The notes below the pieces were generated by a model. The model was not told where the DNA came from. It was given only the letters and a program-made list of their open reading frames with translations, and did not search any database. Positions 5,186 to 30,690 of a stretch of DNA of 30,690 nucleotides are shown here, piece by piece. Source of the DNA: a virus. Both the position numbers and the translations under genes were made by a program. Numbering within the stretch: the first letter of the stretch is position 1; every line of letters begins with the position of its first letter. The stretch lies in the IMG/VR virus record IMGVR_UViG_3300046744_000287, positions 1-30,690 of that record; one strand, given 5' to 3'.

Positions 5186-5431
5186 ATGGCACTATATCAA
5201 GGTAAGAGCGTGACGCTCAATAAGGTAATGAAGTCAGAACGAGCAGCAAAGAAAAGTAAGGTGTATGTGAAGAAGCCTAACGGAAAAGTTACTGTCGTTC
5301 ACTTTGGGGATCCTAACATGAAAATTAAAAAAAATATCCCTAGTAGAAGAAAATCTTTTAGGGCTAGACATAAATGTGATAATCCAGGCCCAAGATGGAA
5401 AGCAAGATATTGGGCATGTAAAACTTGGTAA
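5186..5431 (+). CDS. Small basic conserved phage protein with RKSFRARHKCD motif
   Basis: This 81-residue, strongly basic protein starts MALYQGKSVTLNKVMK. Its second half holds VVHFGDPNMKIKK, RRKSFRARHKCD and RYWACKTW. I recognise this type as a small protein common in marine and T4-like phage structural regions, but its exact role is not settled. His and Cys in RHKCD and the later Cys in WACKTW could bind a metal or DNA. It is the first gene of a rightward run of small lysine-rich proteins. Confidence 0.85.
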   Translation: MALYQGKSVTLNKVMKSERAAKKSKVYVKKPNGKVTVVHFGDPNMKIKKNIPSRRKSFRARHKCDNPGPRWKARYWACKTW

Positions 5432-6384: not shown

Positions 6385-7314
6385 ATGGAAGACGAAGAAA
6401 TCATTGACCCAAGGCAACAGGCCATAAATGCAAAAAAAGAAAAACTCAAGGCTCTTTTACAAAAAAGAAAAAAGGCTACTGCAAATAGAGAAACTGCTTT
6501 ATCAGAAAGAGAAAAGGTTGCTCTAGAAAGAAAGGAACTTTTAAAAAAGAAAAGGGCTGAAAGAGAGCAAGAAATAGCAAACTTCAAGGCTAAAAGAAAT
6601 GCTGAAATTCAAGCAAAAAAAGACGAAAGACTTGCTGAAATTCAAAAAAAGAAAGATTTTGATGCAGAAGGTAAACAACTTGCTTCTGATTTTGATAAAG
6701 AAGAAGCGATTAGAAGAGCGGCAGCGATTCAGAAAAAAGCCGAAGATGATAATTATGACTGGAATTATATAGGTGGTGATGAAAATACCGCTAACAAAAG
6801 ACAGAGAACCGAAATTATTGAAGGTGAAAAAGAAGTAGAAAGAATAATTAAGGGGACTAAAGAAATCAATACATTTAAACCAACTGGTAATACAGATGAA
6901 GATGTATATAACGCAGACCCTAGTTTAAAAAAGAAGTACCCAACCTTAGAAAAGTTTAGGATTGCTGCACAAAAATATCGTGATGATCAAGTTAAAACTG
7001 TAGAGACAGAGCAAAAAGTCATTGAAAAAGTTCCTACTAGAGAAGAAAAGGTTATTACTCAAACTAGAGAGGATTGGATTAAGAAACAACATTGGGCTGA
7101 AGGGTTACCTAAAGGTTTAGTTTCTTCACTAGCACTTAGTATGAGAAAAAGAGGTAATGACATGACTCCTAAAGAATTATATGACATATTCAAATCACAA
7201 ACATCTGAAAAAGAATCTGCTGCATGGGCTAGAAAAAATGGATTTGGTTATCTATTAGGTGGTAGAGGTGGTAGAGGATCATCTACAACAAGTGGTAAAA
7301 CAAACTTTAATTAA
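6385..7314 (+). CDS. Highly charged coiled-coil protein
   Basis: This 309-residue protein is the largest of the operon. Residues 1-120 are a nearly continuous Glu/Lys/Arg helix (for example REQEIANFKAKRNAEIQAKK), which predicts a long coiled coil. A middle part, residues 125-225, contains NYDWNYIGGDENTANKRQRT and a DPSLKKKYPTLEKFRIAAQ segment. The C-terminus is Gly-rich (GGRGGRGSSTTSG). I recognise no enzyme motif. A virion or internal head protein is plausible from the neighbours. It shares one base with the next gene (TAATG). Confidence 0.8.
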   Translation: MEDEEIIDPRQQAINAKKEKLKALLQKRKKATANRETALSEREKVALERKELLKKKRAEREQEIANFKAKRNAEIQAKKDERLAEIQKKKDFDAEGKQLASDFDKEEAIRRAAAIQKKAEDDNYDWNYIGGDENTANKRQRTEIIEGEKEVERIIKGTKEINTFKPTGNTDEDVYNADPSLKKKYPTLEKFRIAAQKYRDDQVKTVETEQKVIEKVPTREEKVITQTREDWIKKQHWAEGLPKGLVSSLALSMRKRGNDMTPKELYDIFKSQTSEKESAAWARKNGFGYLLGGRGGRGSSTTSGKTNFN

Positions 7315-10580: not shown

Positions 10581-10614
10581 CCTTTACACGTTACGGACAA
10601 TATGTAAAGCAAAA

Positions 10615-10691
10615 TGCCTGGTAGTTCAATTGGATAGAACAACAGACTTCTAATCTGTCGGTTGAGGGTTCGAATCCCTCCCAGGTAACCA
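10615..10691 (+). tRNA. tRNA-Arg (anticodon TCT)
   Basis: A full cloverleaf can be drawn. The acceptor TGCCTGG pairs with CCAGGTA (one G-U). The D arm is GTTC/GAAC. The anticodon stem ACAGA/TCTGT has loop CTTCTAA, so the anticodon is TCT, reading AGA. The T arm is GAGGG-TTCGAAT-CCCTC. The discriminator is A at 10688, and CCA at 10689-10691 is encoded in the DNA. AGA is the common Arg codon in this AT-rich phage, so the tRNA would support its own translation. Confidence 0.96.
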
Positions 10692-10717: not shown

Positions 10718-10741
10718 GGACGATCGTCCAAAACTTTTTTT
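10718..10741 (+). terminator. Palindrome GGACGATCGTCC followed by T-run
   Basis: A perfect 12-base palindrome (10718-10729) is followed after 5 bases by seven T and then an A/T tract. As RNA only four pairs with a GAUC loop can form, so it is a weak intrinsic terminator for the tRNA transcript. It could equally be a protein-binding palindrome. Confidence 0.4.
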
Positions 10742-10805: not shown

Positions 10806-10838
10806 TTTGGATGTTAACAAAATAATTCTATATATTTG
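10806..10838 (+). promoter_or_regulatory. Rightward early-type promoter, Bacteroidota consensus
   Basis: TTTG (10806-10809), 21 bases and then TATATTTG (10831-10838) matches the Bacteroidota boxes TTTG and TAnnTTTG without a mismatch. Transcription should start near 10845 and give a leader of about 30 bases before the ATG at 10877. It would drive the operon that contains the four hammerhead ribozymes. Confidence 0.75.
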
Positions 10839-10876
10839 TACCATCGTTCAAACATTATTAATTAAAACTGAAAATC

Positions 10877-11237: not shown

Positions 11238-11516
11238 ATGACAAATTCAAACTATTTCACAGCCTTCAACAGATTCGATAGACAAACAACATTTAACCCA
11301 ATGATGATGTCTTTCATCCAAACTACGATCAACAAAATAAGTAACGGAGGCTTCAGAGCAAGTGACCTGGTAAATTCTCTTTACGGTATCTATGACGGTT
11401 ACTACTACACAAATTTAAGATCAGAGGCCAATCGTCTATACTCACACGATATTATGATCCTTCGAGATCTACATGCAATTGCAGACACCTTGGACTCGAT
11501 AATTGCGAGAGCATAA
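11238..11516 (+). CDS. Unknown small protein before hammerhead 1
   Basis: This 92-residue protein begins MTNSNYFTAFNRFDRQTTFN and is mostly helical with no known motif. The start follows AATTAATTTAAACTAAAATAAAA, the shared leader type. Its TAA stop (11514-11516) is directly adjacent to the first base of hammerhead ribozyme 1, so the ribozyme forms the 3' end of this message after cleavage. Confidence 0.75.
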   Translation: MTNSNYFTAFNRFDRQTTFNPMMMSFIQTTINKISNGGFRASDLVNSLYGIYDGYYYTNLRSEANRLYSHDIMILRDLHAIADTLDSIIARA

Positions 11517-11570
11517 GATTACTGATGAGCCTGTGAGATCCAGGCGAAACATCCTTCGGGATGTCTAATC
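11517..11570 (+). ncRNA. Type I hammerhead ribozyme 1
   Basis: All core parts are present. CTGATGA is at 11522-11528. Stem II is GCCTG/CAGGC (11529-11533 with 11541-11545), then GAAA (11546-11549). Stem III is CATCC-TTCG-GGATG (11550-11563) with a UUCG loop. The cleavage triplet GTC ends at 11565. Stem I GATTA (11517-11521) pairs perfectly with TAATC (11566-11570) and is the open stem, which makes it type I. Cleavage after 11565 would leave a 29-base leader before the ATG at 11595. Confidence 0.95.
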
Positions 11571-11594
11571 GAAAATTAATTTAAACTAAAACCG

Positions 11595-11849
11595 ATGTTA
11601 ACATTAAGAAAATTCTACCAGGAAAATTACCCAACAGATGATATGGGATCTAAAATCAACTTAACAACTTTTGTATGCTTAATGGATTGCTTACATAGAG
11701 GAGGTAACGTGTACATCATCATTGGTGTAGAAGACAGTCTAATTAGAGAGAGATTATTTCAACACCTTGCCGACATGTTAGGCACCAACTACAACTATGT
11801 TTACAATTTATGGATGCAGGTAGATAAAGAATTATACCAGGCAATCTGA
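11595..11849 (+). CDS. Unknown small protein overlapping hammerhead 2
   Basis: This 84-residue protein starts MLTLRKFYQENYPTDDMGSK. It contains no recognised motif; the middle, GGNVYIIIGVEDSLIRERLF, looks like an alpha/beta segment. Its last codons Gln-Ala-Ile and stop lie inside hammerhead 2: stem I supplies the final codons and the TGA stop at 11847-11849 is part of the CTGATGA core. The leader is the AATTTAAACTAAAA type, left as a 29-base 5' end by cleavage of hammerhead 1. Confidence 0.75.
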   Translation: MLTLRKFYQENYPTDDMGSKINLTTFVCLMDCLHRGGNVYIIIGVEDSLIRERLFQHLADMLGTNYNYVYNLWMQVDKELYQAI

Positions 11850-11889
11850 TGAGATCTTTATGATCGAAACGCTGCGAAGCGTCATTGTC
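11840..11889 (+). ncRNA. Type I hammerhead ribozyme 2, stop codon in the core
   Basis: The core CTGATGA is at 11846-11852. Stem II is GATC/GATC (11853-11856 with 11862-11865), then GAAA (11866-11869). Stem III is CGCT-GCGA-AGCG (11870-11881) with a GNRA loop. GTC ends at 11883. Stem I GGCAAT (11840-11845) pairs with ATTGTC (11884-11889), six pairs with one G-U. Its stem II differs from the other three copies. Cleavage would leave 27 bases before the ATG at 11911. Confidence 0.94.
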
Positions 11890-11910
11890 AAATAATTTAA
11901 AATAAATAAA

Positions 11911-12051
11911 ATGTCAAAATCAAAATTAAAATTAGTACTAATCGCAACAGTAGTTGGAATAGCAATTACTTTCTTAGGAATAGCATTGCTATCCGCTATG
12001 GATCTTATTGAGAGACAATCTGATCTAATGAACCTTACAAACTTTAATTAA
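11911..12051 (+). CDS. 46-residue single-pass membrane protein
   Basis: The protein starts MSKSKLKLVLIATVVGIAIT and continues with FLGIALLSAM, giving one long membrane helix at about residues 8-28. The rest is DLIERQSDLMNLTNFN. Its leader AATTTAAAATAAATAAA follows the cleavage site of hammerhead 2 by 27 bases. A signal-anchored early membrane protein is likely; partners are unknown. Confidence 0.65.
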   Translation: MSKSKLKLVLIATVVGIAITFLGIALLSAMDLIERQSDLMNLTNFN

Positions 12052-12077
12052 TTAATAAATAATCTAAACTGAAAATC

Positions 12078-12221
12078 ATGTTAAACAAAATTCAATCAAT
12101 CGTAATCAATAGCCTTTTAGGATCTTTATTCACACTATGGGCACTAACATTTACAATGCTAGTCTTTCACCTGGTAACAGAAGGTGTAGATCCTAACGCA
12201 AGTTTTGGATACCTGGGATAA
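12078..12221 (+). CDS. 47-residue membrane protein before hammerhead 3
   Basis: The frame begins MLNKIQSIVINSLLGSLFTL and has a hydrophobic helix through WALTFTMLVFHLV. The tail is TEGVDPNASFGYLG. The TAA stop (12219-12221) touches the first base of hammerhead 3, as in the gene before hammerhead 1. The leader AATCTAAACTGAAAATC is of the common type. Confidence 0.65.
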   Translation: MLNKIQSIVINSLLGSLFTLWALTFTMLVFHLVTEGVDPNASFGYLG

Positions 12222-12275
12222 ACAAACTGATGAGCCTGTGAGATCCAGGCGAAACGCTCTGCGGAGCGTCTTTGT
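12222..12275 (+). ncRNA. Type I hammerhead ribozyme 3
   Basis: CTGATGA is at 12227-12233. Stem II GCCTG/CAGGC and its 7-base loop TGAGATC are identical to hammerhead 1, then GAAA (12251-12254). Stem III is CGCTC-TGCG-GAGCG (12255-12268) with a UNCG loop. GTC ends at 12270. Stem I ACAAA (12222-12226) pairs with TTTGT (12271-12275). Cleavage would leave 26 bases before the ATG at 12297. Confidence 0.95.
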
Positions 12276-12296
12276 ATAACTAAAAAAACTATTACA

Positions 12297-12704
12297 ATGC
12301 AAACTGAAATTCAAAAATTACAAGCGATCATGAAATTACAAAACGCTCTTAACAGTCATGATTGGCATTATCAAAGATCTGAGGATCCTGGAGTATATCG
12401 AAGAGGTACAGCACAGCGTAACGAGTTAAACATTCTTATGACTGCTATAGGTAATAAAGATCTTGCTCTCTCTCTATACAATAAGGCATGTCCTTGGGTT
12501 GAGAATGAAGAGGAGGTCACCCCAAATCGTTACAGCCTAGAAGAACAGGCCCAGGAATTACTTGATGCAGGAGACTCACACGATGCTGCCGAAGGTAAAG
12601 GAATGATGAGAGTAATTGACGAGATTATGAGCATCATTGATTTGGATGAACCAAAGGATGAATTGTTAGACATGATCTACTTCACTTTAAAATACAATTC
12701 ATAA
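12297..12704 (+). CDS. Unknown acidic protein
   Basis: This 135-residue protein starts MQTEIQKLQAIMKLQNALNS, is acidic and predicted helical. It contains DWHYQRSEDPGVYRRGTAQ near residue 22 and a C-terminal IDEIMSIIDLDEPKDELLDM. No known fold is recognised. The coding sequence includes one exact GGTCACCCC motif (12515-12523). It follows hammerhead 3 and overlaps the next start by one base (TAATG). Confidence 0.75.
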   Translation: MQTEIQKLQAIMKLQNALNSHDWHYQRSEDPGVYRRGTAQRNELNILMTAIGNKDLALSLYNKACPWVENEEEVTPNRYSLEEQAQELLDAGDSHDAAEGKGMMRVIDEIMSIIDLDEPKDELLDMIYFTLKYNS

Positions 12705-12871
12705 TGGCTGTAATAACATCAAAAAAACTAGCAGAAATCCAGGATCAAATTATAGATCTTGGTTGGGAGGCCCAAAGAATGTCATCCTCAGGACTAGAAA
12801 CGTACAACAAACTTTGCAAAACATTTAAAATAGAACCAATAAAAATCACATATAATGAAGACTCGTTTTAA
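12704..12871 (+). CDS. Unknown 55-residue protein
   Basis: The frame MAVITSKKLAEIQDQIIDLG and on is a helical hairpin-like protein. Its start overlaps the preceding stop (TAATG) and its end overlaps the next gene by 17 bases. These couplings support coding. Function is unknown. Confidence 0.65.
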   Translation: MAVITSKKLAEIQDQIIDLGWEAQRMSSSGLETYNKLCKTFKIEPIKITYNEDSF

Positions 12872-13166
12872 TATTATCAGACAAAAAGTAACTACAAGAG
12901 GCGGAGGTATAGAGATCTGCCTAGAAAACCAAGGTTACCCAGGAGAAAAAATGACAGCCTACCAAAACTATTTAGGAGGCGGGATACTAGGAAGGATCGG
13001 AAACGATTGTACTATAACAGATTGGCAGCAGGATGATTTCCTGGTAGATCTTGCAGACAGTTTAGCAAAGATCATGCACAGGATGACAGCACCAATTTAT
13101 TTACAAGGTGAAGAACTAGAGCAAACATTTGAACAAAATCAATCTATGCCAATAAGTGCATACTAA
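12855..13166 (+). CDS. Unknown 103-residue protein
   Basis: It begins MKTRFNIIRQKVTTRGGGIE. The first half is beta-strand-rich and Gly-rich (YLGGGILGRIG), the second half helical (DDFLVDLADSLAKIMHRM). It overlaps the preceding frame by 17 bases. No family is recognised. Confidence 0.7.
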   Translation: MKTRFNIIRQKVTTRGGGIEICLENQGYPGEKMTAYQNYLGGGILGRIGNDCTITDWQQDDFLVDLADSLAKIMHRMTAPIYLQGEELEQTFEQNQSMPISAY

Positions 13167-13176
13167 AATTTAAACT

Positions 13177-13320
13177 ATGGCTATAACTAATGAAATATTC
13201 GAACACTACAGATCTCAACAGAGAAAGGTAGCAAAAGCAAAAGATCTTTTAAAAGATGAAGGGTATATAGTTTACCTGAAACCTACAAAAAAGAAAAAGC
13301 AAACTGATGAGCCTGTGTAA
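13177..13320 (+). CDS. 47-residue protein whose 3' end lies in hammerhead 4
   Basis: The frame MAITNEIFEHYRSQQRKVAK is followed by a basic region KPTKKKKQ and ends TDEPV. The final seven codons are read from stem I, the CTGATGA core and stem II of hammerhead 4; the TAA stop (13318-13320) sits in its loop II. The start is 10 bases after the preceding stop in AATTTAAACT context. Basic, helical, unknown. Confidence 0.65.
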   Translation: MAITNEIFEHYRSQQRKVAKAKDLLKDEGYIVYLKPTKKKKQTDEPV

Positions 13321-13384
13321 CTCAGGCGAAACGAGGGAGAAATGTTTTGAACGACTCCATGATTTTTGGCTCCCTCGTCTTTGT
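13299..13384 (+). ncRNA. Type I hammerhead ribozyme 4 with enlarged stem-loop III
   Basis: CTGATGA is at 13304-13310. Stem II is GCCTG/CAGGC (13311-13315 with 13323-13327) with loop TGTAACT, then GAAA (13328-13331). Stem III is eight perfect pairs, CGAGGGAG (13332-13339) with CTCCCTCG (13370-13377), and has a 30-base loop in place of a tetraloop. GTC ends at 13379. Stem I GCAAA (13299-13303) pairs with TTTGT (13380-13384), one G-U. Cleavage would leave 26 bases before the ATG at 13406. Confidence 0.93.
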
Positions 13385-13405
13385 ATAATAATAAAAACTG
13401 AAACA

Positions 13406-13990
13406 ATGAAAAAAAATTTTTGTGATTGCTGCGAGCAAGAGATAGATCAAGATCTAGATTTTTATCAATACGACCGTAACGATGAGATCCTATGTGAAGA
13501 ATGCTATTACGAGGCTTTTAATCGCTCTACTGTAATTCAGACATGGTCACCCCAAGATCAGGAGACAAAAAAATATTATTACCCGCATGAAATAGGGAAG
13601 GCATTCAATACATACTACGAAGAAATTTATTCTGATGATGATGAGGATCACCAACCTGTAAAAGATTGCAAATGGGTAAATTCAAATGCATGGAGAGGTT
13701 ATATGGACGTTGAATTCAAGGAAGGATGGAAAGATATAGAAAGCGGATGGACTACAGGATATTGGGAAGATGTTTCCTGGAAGCATAAGTTTAACGATTT
13801 AGTCCATGAAATTATAGGAGAAAACTCTGAATGCCCTGTAGCAGTATCAATCGTATCAAGTATAACAAGCAATGTATTTTCTCAGGCCACTTCTATTTTA
13901 GTAAGATCTAAAGACGAAGAAACATTTTTAGATTGGCTTGAAAACGAATATGGAATGACAAGAGAACAATTAAAAACATCACTAAAATAA
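13406..13990 (+). CDS. Zinc-ribbon acidic protein after hammerhead 4
   Basis: The product is 194 residues, starting MKKNFCDCCEQEIDQDLDF. I chose the ATG at 13406, since the longer frame from 13307 would read straight through hammerhead 4; the chosen start follows the leader AATAAAAACTGAAACA. Near the N-terminus are CDCC (residues 6-9) and CEEC (30-33), a likely zinc ribbon. The rest is acidic with a D/E run (YSDDDEDH). One GGTCACCCC motif (13545-13553) lies in the gene. Function is unknown. Confidence 0.8.
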   Translation: MKKNFCDCCEQEIDQDLDFYQYDRNDEILCEECYYEAFNRSTVIQTWSPQDQETKKYYYPHEIGKAFNTYYEEIYSDDDEDHQPVKDCKWVNSNAWRGYMDVEFKEGWKDIESGWTTGYWEDVSWKHKFNDLVHEIIGENSECPVAVSIVSSITSNVFSQATSILVRSKDEETFLDWLENEYGMTREQLKTSLK

Positions 13991-17141: not shown

Positions 17142-17399
17142 ATGGTCAGATTTGACTACGAAAATAGCGAGATCATTCATGATCGAAAAAGGTTTTCTCT
17201 TAGAGAGTTCAAACTTTTCATGCTCACACATCACGAAGACATCTGTATGGAGCGAAGAATTAAGGATTGGATATTTGATTGGGAATCAATCTTGTTTCAT
17301 GCAAGAAAATATTATATAGTAAACTTTTATTTAATAAACATAATCAAAAATAACAATGGGAAAACTGAAAAGAAAACTAAAGAAAACAACAATCGGTAG
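17142..17399 (+). CDS. Unknown small protein
   Basis: This 85-residue product begins MVRFDYENSEIIHDRKRFSL. It is preferred to the other frame from 17062 because its composition (charged and aromatic residues) is more protein-like and a preceding in-frame start exists at 17091. Its last 15 residues, Asn/Lys-rich, overlap the next gene by 44 bases. No family is recognised. Confidence 0.45.
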   Translation: MVRFDYENSEIIHDRKRFSLREFKLFMLTHHEDICMERRIKDWIFDWESILFHARKYYIVNFYLINIIKNNNGKTEKKTKENNNR

Positions 17400-28100: not shown

Positions 28101-30690
28101 AGTAATTGTGTAAGTTGATCAGGTAGTTTTGCCTGATCTATTCTTCTGTGTTCGACTGCTGAAATCGATCCGCCATCATTTGGCGATACAGTTCCAGAGA
28201 AGCGGGATCTATCCCCTTCATCTTGTTGTCTTTGTGCATCGACACTTGGACTTCCTTGTTGGGGTTCGACTCTTGTGGCCTTTGATTGGAAGTATTCCTT
28301 TGTGCGTGTTTTGCTAGTTCCTTTAAATATGTCTTTTGATCCATTTTCTATATTATTTAAGATTCCGTTGTATTGATTATTGTGAGCAACGAATGTATCT
28401 ACATAATGGTTGTAAAAGTACAAAACATTTTCGTTATTCTCTAAATTTAATTTAGTTTCATGTGCATTATTACTCCAGTCACTAACTGCTTGCCTTACAT
28501 TATCATCTGTAATATCCTCTTCGTTTTCAAAAACAAACTCTGGAACAAACTGATACTTAACACCTAATACTTTATTTCCTGCTTCATTAGTTATAAAAGT
28601 ATAACCAGAAATATCTGTTTTTATTGGCCCTAACTGAACACCTTCTTTGTCTAAATTTTCTCTAGCGAAAGTAGATGCTTCTTCAAAACTCATTGGAGTT
28701 CTAAATTGCATTTCAACAGCAGGCCGAGCGTTTGGACGTTTAGCCAATTCTCTCTCCATTGTTTCAGGATCCATTCTCTCATCAATAGGTAATACCTCTG
28801 ATAAGAATACAGATTCTTGTTCATGTTTCTTTGCAGACTCAATAGCCCTCTTTAAAACAGGAGTCATATCTTGATCCGACTTTACAATCATCTCAGCATC
28901 AAAACTTCTTTCAGGATATATTAAATACTGTCCCTGTGTCTCGTTTACTTTTAATGATACCAGGTCACCCTCTCTTAAGTCATTTTGAATAGACTGTCTT
29001 TCCTCTTCTATTATTTCTAAGTTATCTTTTGCTTCTAACTCAGGATCTGTATACTGATCTCTTTCTGTACTTAATCCTAAATAATATCTAGTGATATCAT
29101 TTTTAGCAGCCTCTTCCCTAAAATCAGATTTCTTAGCGGCAGTTCCTTTTGACCATCCTTTCTTTAACCAAAGATCCTTTTCTGCAAACCATAAGTATGC
29201 CTGTAGATCATCAGGATCCATATCTAGTTTAGCCGAAGCGTTTTTAATAACCTCTTCCGCTAATTGGTAATCTGAAAAACCTCCTGCCTCAGCAGCATAA
29301 ACTCTTTCATCTACACCTTGCTCGGCTCTCTCAGCAATTCTATATCTATCGACATTACCATCGTAAACCATTCGTCTTATTGTACGAGCAGCCCATAAAT
29401 CAATGGTAGGATTTGTTGTTATACCAACAACATTTTCATAAAAGTTATTTGTTTTTGATTGCTGAGTTTGTTGCAACCAAATACCTGCTAACACCTTTGC
29501 AGCAGCAGGACTATTAATACCGTATAGTTTTGTAGGATTATCAGTTCTATATAAAGGGTTAGCCTTTGGCCATAGATTTAATAACTTTCTTTTTGTTTCG
29601 TTAATATCTTTAGGATCAGGCTTAAGTCTTGATTCGCTATAAGCAGTTTTTCCTTGTTTTTTTAAAGCGTTTACTGCTCTTCCTTTATATTCGTTGAAGA
29701 ATTGATTTAATTCCTCTTCGTTTTCAAACTGTTCTACTCTATCAATAAACTCTTTATATTCTTCTATGTACTTGTCATAAGCACCCTTTGAATAAGCCTC
29801 TAATGCTTGAGTAGCATATTTGTAATTTTGCTGTACATCTGTCTGTCCTGAAGTTGCACCTAACAATCTACCAAAGAAATTAGTTCTACCTCCAAAGAGG
29901 TTTCTCATATTTAAATGTAAATCTTTATACCATCCTAAACCTTTAACTACTTCAGGTACATCCTTATTCGCTTCAAATTCATCTACAATTTTATCACCAA
30001 TCAGATCTATTTTCTCTTCAATTGTTCCCTCAAAGTATTCATTAACTCCGTTAACCAAAGCATAAGACTGACCAGATATTTTAACTTTTAGTTTACCTGA
30101 TTTTGTTTTAGTGAATTGATATTTACCTTCCTTCATCACAGGAGTAAGTTGTGATAGTGTTGGGTCGTTTTCTAATGTTTCTTTTAACGCATTAAATTCT
30201 TTTATTGCTTCACGCTCAGGGTTTTTATATCTCTGTGCGTCAATTGCGTCAACATCAATTGATTCTTTATTTGCATTAGGATCAATACTTGTGGCAGACA
30301 TTATTTTCTCTGCACTTGAGTTTATAACAGCATCAATACTACTTGTTTTGATATCAAAATCTGCGTCACTAGGTAGGTTTAATGCTTGCTTAATTGCCTG
30401 TTTAACTTGATCAATTACTTTTTCAAACTGTGATTGTCTCTTAGGATCTTTAAATATTTTAGCACTTTTTTCACCAATAGCCTGTACTAAAGCCTCGTTT
30501 AGTGCTCTATCTCCATAACCGTTAGCAACCGCTTCTTTATGATACTTTGTACCTTTAATTAAGGCCATTGCTTTTTTATGAGCATCTGGATTAACTTCAG
30601 CCAACATATCCTCCCATATATGAGCAAACTCATGTATAGGTGTATCAAGCGTAGCAAGTTTAGGGTTTATATAAATTTGATTTGTATTTC
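25154..30690 (-). CDS. Giant polyvalent virion protein with N-terminal zincin motif (partial)
   Basis: The frame stays open to the right edge, so the gene is longer than the 1817 residues counted from the Met at 30607. Upstream of that Met, codons read TPIHEFAHIWED; HEFAH (30620-30634) is a zincin HExxH, and NEALVQAIGEK follows as a possible third-ligand helix. The body is a chain of charged, coiled-coil and alpha/beta segments, with a polar linker near residue 780-820 (DAQRQQDEGDRSRFS). Hydrophobic stretches near residue 1470 (YFGTMSFLGLAALAAKAYED) may cross membranes during DNA ejection. This matches the large polyvalent proteins of phages, injected or carried in the virion. Confidence 0.75.
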   Translation of the reverse strand, partial: NTNQIYINPKLATLDTPIHEFAHIWEDMLAEVNPDAHKKAMALIKGTKYHKEAVANGYGDRALNEALVQAIGEKSAKIFKDPKRQSQFEKVIDQVKQAIKQALNLPSDADFDIKTSSIDAVINSSAEKIMSATSIDPNANKESIDVDAIDAQRYKNPEREAIKEFNALKETLENDPTLSQLTPVMKEGKYQFTKTKSGKLKVKISGQSYALVNGVNEYFEGTIEEKIDLIGDKIVDEFEANKDVPEVVKGLGWYKDLHLNMRNLFGGRTNFFGRLLGATSGQTDVQQNYKYATQALEAYSKGAYDKYIEEYKEFIDRVEQFENEEELNQFFNEYKGRAVNALKKQGKTAYSESRLKPDPKDINETKRKLLNLWPKANPLYRTDNPTKLYGINSPAAAKVLAGIWLQQTQQSKTNNFYENVVGITTNPTIDLWAARTIRRMVYDGNVDRYRIAERAEQGVDERVYAAEAGGFSDYQLAEEVIKNASAKLDMDPDDLQAYLWFAEKDLWLKKGWSKGTAAKKSDFREEAAKNDITRYYLGLSTERDQYTDPELEAKDNLEIIEEERQSIQNDLREGDLVSLKVNETQGQYLIYPERSFDAEMIVKSDQDMTPVLKRAIESAKKHEQESVFLSEVLPIDERMDPETMERELAKRPNARPAVEMQFRTPMSFEEASTFARENLDKEGVQLGPIKTDISGYTFITNEAGNKVLGVKYQFVPEFVFENEEDITDDNVRQAVSDWSNNAHETKLNLENNENVLYFYNHYVDTFVAHNNQYNGILNNIENGSKDIFKGTSKTRTKEYFQSKATRVEPQQGSPSVDAQRQQDEGDRSRFSGTVSPNDGGSISAVEHRRIDQAKLPDQLTQLLTTLSGQGMVPSKLIPAIKIYSQRVDGKELSTEQARMLLNKFMGSEGFRQRGFETGSIENAKDSDEGKQEVYDWVNENPNYYETMDMKQTMELVLEDINSRGGFENEQVIKDLLGSNTTVKELARVQLARQAALHHYGLKVSKLRSEGASGAEIDSVIDTMAKIERVLAKDATEAGQASAALRSWTAQTAATLIDRTERAMEKFNEDMDNKSKFGHFIHRLFGGKQKLESTTLSEEQRSKIEELHSIIKDAPSNSELANVAMRSMYKYMDSVLPSYTWQDTFFGLQYAALLSGASTQVLNVTSGSANIVLQPLMEMSRIDKIFTGGYFDFIRKIGSGTNKKGMQQGYNMAMDIWKNGARVDKYQNSESTPDGGQYNVLETTEFKGGKANPYNYYKYVGRMLNATDRFISKVGYEGRYYNYLIDQLRKDGVPKSQLRKRASELYLATEVSRTAQKEMETLMNRMREADPNTDFSNIEVVRARELMHEALALKYSEDFVDKSDAELEVMKEKDGFDGTIEEFKEYMKAMKEAEINGIATDANLASNAQVFIDNRPGGFAQPIAWVADKIRQASNSQSIGFGGKLALKSFVPFTSIIGSIGEYMIDVTPGIGLARAYIAKDGLGEKGSRMRDEQMSRAYFGTMSFLGLAALAAKAYEDDDEEPFFEVSGGGYNNSNMYTRNDMKNASLPPYSFRVGGVVMDYRNIVPLAIPMAIIGNYMETHKMTGGKGEVFDDMMSRLTIAYANSANLIMDSSVLTSVKELTEAIFGQVDGRGSQYDPNTVSDSSLNKTLQRIGKTSIRSVGGTIMRPLPQNLNLFRQVTKIFDANSYSAGDAKNALLYAAGLSQIAGQPKVDVFGEQAKSFPGETVIPYTHWLGLRGSDARWQFLDKYNAYPGKIQNRPMKIGRDMRPLTDEELYQHQVTTGQEFNKLIIKYMKGRGKLEDKILTYSGRSQSMHKTNISKMWSAAQAKSKLKNKKSWRNTVID

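Follow-up and report, generated by a model that had tools for sequence, protein, structure and literature searches.

Hammerhead ribozymes clustered around genes have been described in prophages, where processing to single-gene or operon-length mRNAs was proposed (Perreault et al., 2011, PMC3088659). A triple hammerhead array was found to cleave in vitro and when expressed in E. coli; in vivo cleavage of an array within one transcript was shown for A. tumefaciens only (PMC3088659). In the haloviruses HF1/HF2, 13 nt separate the hammerhead (HHphage) from the start codon that follows it, and an mRNA 5' end has been mapped within 3 nt of the cut (PMC3088659). A 2017 review lists the role of prokaryotic hammerheads as an open question (PMC6155905).

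Here, we analyzed a stretch of 30,690 nt from the virus record IMGVR_UViG_3300046744_000287 (in the following, the window), in which four type I hammerheads (HH1 to HH4) are found. As in the prophage clusters (PMC3088659), the hammerheads are grouped around single genes or short blocks of genes, and, as described by Perreault et al. (2011), several lie close together flanking genes of a phage, with portal, terminase and primase-helicase present. In contrast to these clusters, the window represents a flavobacterial-type phage and holds type I elements only, four of them in 1.9 kb, and the distances from stop codon to ribozyme and from cut to start codon are quantified here over 271 elements. 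HHphage is comparable in lying just upstream of a start codon, near a mapped mRNA 5' end, but it is single, has an atypical core and precedes the first gene of a transcript instead of being placed between cistrons (PMC3088659). The first-pass annotation had regarded a run of four as unusual, a view that does not hold, as clustered phage hammerheads were published in 2011 (PMC3088659) and arrays of 5 to 11 were found in the present study. No report of the stop–ribozyme–RBS–start geometry was found in the open-licence literature; new here are the quantified junction of this kind and a cultured test system.

Source virus and hammerhead elements

The 30.7-kb virus record encodes a portal protein, large terminase, GroES-like protein, integrase, RecE-like exonuclease and primase-helicase. 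The terminase shows 31% identity to that of Flavobacterium elemo phages and 25–30% to those of Cellulophaga, Maribacter and Tenacibaculum phages. The source is a marine phage of flavobacterial type. No such hammerhead was found in the Cellulophaga, Maribacter and Tenacibaculum phages with related terminase. The proteins flanking the array gave no match to cultured phages, and searching Pfam and PHROGs did not yield a function for them. Related viral contigs were gathered through protein neighbors.

A structural scanner detects four complete hammerheads on the plus strand within 1.9 kb, at exactly the positions given in the first-pass annotation, that is, HH1 at 11517–11570, HH2 at 11840–11889, HH3 at 12222–12275 and HH4 at 13299–13384, versus none in 300 dinucleotide shuffles of the window. 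All four elements carry the type I core CUGANGA/GAA/A15.1-U16.1/H17, and the core had rightly been called complete, with C3, U4, G5, A6, N7, G8 and A9, the G12 A13 A14 stretch, the A15.1-U16.1 pair and C17 being intact in each case. In HH1, stem I (11517–11521/11566–11570) encloses the core at 11522–11528, stem II at 11529–11545, the GAA at 11546–11548, stem III at 11549–11564 and C17 at position 11565. Stems I, II and III comprise 5, 5 and 6 bp in both HH1 and HH3, 6, 4 and 5 bp in HH2, and 5, 5 and 9 bp in HH4. Scanner, minimum free energy (MFE) folds and covariation agree on the type I geometry of three helices with stem I open and stems II and III closed, and the hammerhead is the MFE structure of each of the four elements when folded alone. 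HH2 represents a second subtype, characterized by its 6-bp stem I, 4-bp stem II and the loop UUUAU, while stem II and loop II of HH3 are identical to those of HH1, the two elements having an identical stretch of 29 bases in common. From the folds, cleavage is predicted at 11565/11566, 11883/11884, 12270/12271 and 13379/13380, leaving the 5'-OH at T11566, A11884, T12271 and T13380, respectively. These are the 5' ends proposed earlier, and the fragment lengths of 318, 387 and 1109 nt between the predicted cut sites had been calculated correctly as well.

Scored without filters by a covariance model of 43 hammerheads, the window elements reach 73, 70.7, 45.4 and 39.1 bits, values that are partly circular for HH1 to HH3, which were included in the model, but not for HH4, which was not. 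As the next best score falls to 14.8 bits, the window contains exactly four such elements. Matches at or below 14.8 bits were dismissed as chance, and a fifth pattern match on the minus strand (29151–29214) was rejected as well, being devoid of stems and failing the structural scan. Different phages conserve the loop II motif GUGARAU as well as an AA that flanks stem I, which may hint at a tertiary contact between stem I and loop II.

A search with Rfam models, proposed in the first-pass annotation as a check, was negative at the curated gathering thresholds. With Rfam 15, only tRNA and no hammerhead was reported for the window, as its elements do not reach the gathering score of RF00163 (Hammerhead_1). 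A permissive search resulted in weak partial matches to RAGATH-1 and type III models only, with two window elements matching RAGATH-1 partially at 22–25 bits compared to a cut-off of 56. The core and the three-stem fold are nevertheless the same as in RF00163 and RF03152 (type I, RAGATH-1). In 11 sister loci, the same thresholds recover none of the many type I hammerheads found by the scanner but two type II hammerheads in one contig. Since the type I elements go undetected in the sister loci as well, the negative Rfam result reflects model sensitivity and not absence of the ribozyme. In a contig of Patescibacteria (JAHCSE010000023.1), two Rfam type II hammerheads (5314–5383 and 6479–6550) are mixed with type I elements in one 8-kb stretch.

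Gene junctions

Each of the four elements is positioned at a gene junction, as had been noted, but not every cistron is separated from the next. The TAA stop of a plus-strand ORF for 92 aa without assigned family (11238–11516) abuts HH1. Beyond the predicted cut, an A-rich leader of 29 nt (11566–11594) with the 5'-OH at 11566 would stay on the downstream mRNA, preceding an ORF for 84 aa (11595–11849) whose TGA stop (11847–11849) lies within the HH2 core CTGATGA. After HH2, a leader of 27 nt (11884–11910) is followed by two ORFs for 46 aa (11911–12051) and 47 aa (12078–12221), the TAA stop of the latter abutting HH3. The 26-nt leader after HH3 (12271–12296) precedes four ORFs (12297–12704, 12704–12871, 12855–13166 and 13177–13320), and the last of these terminates at a TAA (13318–13320) within loop II of HH4. 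Another 26-nt leader (13380–13405) connects the predicted HH4 cut with an ORF for 194 aa (13406–13990) that has two CxxC motifs and no family match. All these ORFs are on the plus strand, and the inner junctions between HH2 and HH3 and between HH3 and HH4 are without ribozyme. Counted from the C of CTGATGA, the upstream stops of HH1 to HH4 fall at −8, +1, −8 and +14, and the predicted cuts precede the start codons at 11595, 11911, 12297 and 13406 by 29, 27, 26 and 26 nt, respectively.

In the window and its relatives, the leaders are A-rich instead of showing a Shine-Dalgarno-like motif. The sequence AAACTRAAA occurs 14 times in the window compared to 3.2 expected, often about 12 nt before an ATG (for example, at 10865, 11224, 11583, 12066 and 13395), and is likely a ribosome entry motif of this phage, which is without Shine-Dalgarno. 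Ribosome entry signals in the leaders are expected of linear messages and speak against excision of segments by paired hammerheads with subsequent circularization by an RNA ligase. A 2',3'-cyclic phosphate and a 5'-OH are generally the substrates of RtcB-type ligases. We nevertheless consider this route very improbable, also because a search for products of clustered phage hammerheads that had been spliced or circularized found none (Perreault et al., 2011, PMC3088659).

Conservation across viruses

Relatives retain the hammerheads with changes in stem I (GATTA/TAATC, GATCA/TGATT and AATCA/TGATT) and stem II (GATC/GATC and GACC/GGTC), and stem III and position N7 vary, too. When only core and loop II were fixed in the search pattern, over 120 stretches from viruses and 42 from genomes matched. 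Stem III, the U-H positions and stem I are likewise present in 122 of the 138 distinct matches, compared to 0.4% in a control with shuffled flanks. The HH2 subtype was found in at least 120 viral stretches, and 117 out of 118 distinct matches to its pattern show the full fold (control 0.5%). In the covariation alignment, 98.4% of cells are paired, with rows having been pre-selected for pairing, and 174 cells are double-changed versus 41 after shuffling.

Hundreds of viral sequences show the same stop–ribozyme–start layout. An upstream stop between −12 and +14 from CTGANGA was established for 72 of 112 elements in a first non-redundant set and for 108 of 159 in a second, independent one, whereas random positions gave 7–9%. 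The ribozyme sequence itself accounts for some of these stop positions, since core and loop II contain TGA, since an ORF running into the motif automatically stops at +1 or +12, and since the AA before stem I may have a structural role. An A at −6, before stem I, is conserved to 92%, probably for structural reasons. Downstream, an ORF starts within 11–50 nt on the same strand at 209 of the 271 non-redundant type I hammerheads, but on the opposite strand at only 21. Leader length in the wider set has quartiles of 23, 27 and 31 nt, and 128 of the 209 leaders bear a Shine-Dalgarno-like motif.

Type I hammerheads per locus amount to 8 in contig L075, 9 in L311 and 11, within 6.3 kb, in L320 (IMGVR_UViG_3300030382_001968). 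These three arrays run in a single gene direction with nearly one hammerhead per gene and are stronger examples than the window itself. Contigs related to the window keep their orthologous hammerheads in place, while intervening genes are gained, lost or replaced. This persistence through exchanges, together with the 29 identical bases of HH1 and HH3, would fit hammerheads that serve mainly as recombination or duplication anchors for swapping small gene cassettes, with self-cleavage being incidental or tolerated. However, the stems covary rather than keep their sequence, so it is RNA structure and not DNA homology that is preserved, and both the tightly held leader length and the strand fixed relative to the genes argue in the same direction. 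We therefore deem the anchor function unlikely.

Eight thaumarchaeal contigs (Nitrosotalea and others; L157, L161, L163, L170, L182, L185, L191 and L198) have a hammerhead in common, about 16–30 nt upstream of an ORF for about 220–230 aa with a AGGAGGTGA leader. Legionella contigs (L164, L166, L169, L189 and L197) carry a hammerhead with a stem I of 6–7 bp (GCATGA/TTATGC) and no gene start nearby, perhaps representing a different mobile element.

Among cultured phages, elemoB_14-3B possesses one element of the HH2 subtype (17207–17274, minus strand) in a gap of 108 nt between genes, with the predicted cut 28 nt upstream of the gp69 start codon. The same hammerhead stretch was found in 68 elemo records. 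Across 162 nt, the three elemo strains compared differ at five positions, four of which make up two compensatory pairs in stem II. In some elemo records (e.g., MT497070.1, 16904–17011), a small antisense ORF is annotated over the hammerhead region, probably as a gene-caller artefact.

Probable promoter and transcription unit

A putative promoter of the array is located on the plus strand at 10806–10852, consisting of TTTG, a 21-nt spacer, TATATTTG as −7 box of the type TAnnTTTG and the conserved initial sequence TACCATCGTTCAA. The Bacteroidota-type pattern TTTGN{17,22}TANNTTTG has a single plus-strand match in the window (10806–10838) with 1.9 expected, and by number alone is thus no more frequent than chance. 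In related contigs, TATATTTGTACCATCG is conserved upstream of arrays. The sequence at 10806–10838 is probably a promoter serving the whole array, and the intervals between the window hammerheads, in which no promoter of this pattern was found, are consistent with one primary transcript. Two palindromes, GGACGATCGTCC in the window (10718–10729, just after a tRNA-Arg gene) and TTGAACGATCGTTCAA in relative L335 (near 10608–10623), contain a half-site that also occurs in the promoter start region and in the HH4 loop, and may be the operator of a phage regulator.

Intrinsic terminators were not detected at the array junctions, as a true U tract does not follow the stems (CTTTGTATAA). Only one stem III (12254–12269) fits a loose terminator pattern. 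Accordingly, there is little to commend the idea that the hairpins are non-cleaving and act solely as terminators or 3' stabilizers. The catalytic core bases, needless for a terminator, are all intact in the four elements, and pairing of stem I across the element is conserved, so that we give this idea hardly any credence.

Loop III of the fourth hammerhead

In HH4, the 9-bp stem III closes a loop of 30 nt (13340–13369, AAATGTTTTGAACGACTCCATGATTTTTGG), which is conserved throughout the close orthologs and in two distant ones. Conservation is seen in L105/L329/L343, where stem III is changed from ACGAGGGAG/CTCCCTCGT to ACGGAGGG/CCCTCCGT with pairing kept, and the protein encoded downstream has only about 49% aa identity. 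The conserved loop sequence hints at a second function, and the loop could be a sensor, an RNA target or a DNA motif. Its part TTTGAACGA corresponds, in reverse complement, to the initial transcribed sequence of the operon (10844–10852). Antisense pairing between loop and operon leader via the shared TCGTTCAAA/TTTGAACGA was considered but is not supported, as the leader is not among the top five duplex targets in the window and at best ties for first place in one relative. The reading that the downstream ORF is extended N-terminally through the loop (13307–13990) was discarded, since relatives shift the frame there by 1-nt indels.

Loop III of HH4, kept where its stem and the downstream protein have diverged, might indicate regulated switches instead of constitutive ribozymes, with either an upstream terminating ribosome or a ligand or protein on this loop deciding on cleavage. 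Stop codons within or beside the ribozymes would place a terminating ribosome over them. On the other hand, the loops of HH1 to HH3 are ordinary and short, leaving no room for a sensor, and the operon leader does not stand out in the duplex ranking as a partner of the HH4 loop. To our knowledge, no ligand or protein for these hammerhead loops has been described. Regulated switching of the array appears quite improbable on this evidence. A bolder variant is that HH4 is naturally regulated, its loop III sensing a protein, RNA or metabolite and thereby controlling the 194-aa gene, and that phage hammerhead junctions are generally translation-coupled switches in which the built-in stop gates cleavage; we would call this speculative and rather unlikely.

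Proposed processing and implications

We regard it as likely that the four type I hammerheads are self-cleaving separators of cistrons in one phage operon. Sequence, covariation, position and the conserved upstream promoter make this arrangement well supported as judged from genome data, while cleavage, end chemistry and any consequence for the stability and translation of the mRNAs are inferred. Points against it are the inner junctions of the operon that carry no ribozyme and the Legionella-type hammerheads of the wider set, which have no gene start close by. Transcription from the single putative promoter near 10806–10838 would read through the array, and at each gene junction carrying an element the ribozyme would fold in the nascent RNA and then cut. 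The upstream message would keep nearly the whole ribozyme and would therefore end in a structured 3' terminus bearing a 2',3'-cyclic phosphate, and the downstream message would start with a 5'-OH and retain only 5–6 nt of stem I. The resulting leader of 26–29 nt would be short, unstructured and A-rich and would bear a host-type ribosome entry signal. In this way, each cassette, comprising one to four small genes, may become a separate message with standard ends, independent of its neighbors. From general RNA biology, the 5'-OH and cyclic-phosphate ends can be expected to affect stability, and separate tuning of message stability and translation by the hammerheads, as suggested in the first-pass annotation, is plausible.

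The regular junction, occurring with two ribozyme subtypes, with leaders with and without Shine-Dalgarno motif and in arrays of up to 11 elements, argues for one general job, namely, dividing long phage transcripts into individual messages whose ends are standard. In synthetic insulators such as RiboJ, a hammerhead placed just upstream of the RBS provides a uniform 5' leader whatever lies upstream. RiboJ was derived by engineering from a satellite RNA ribozyme and does not stem from a position between natural cistrons. Phage hammerhead junctions would be the natural counterpart of these insulators. As the elemo phages are cultured, the cistron-separator idea can be tested in the laboratory, and they offer the best experimental entry point. 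The recurrent layout thus makes the poorly understood role of hammerheads in bacterial viruses directly testable.
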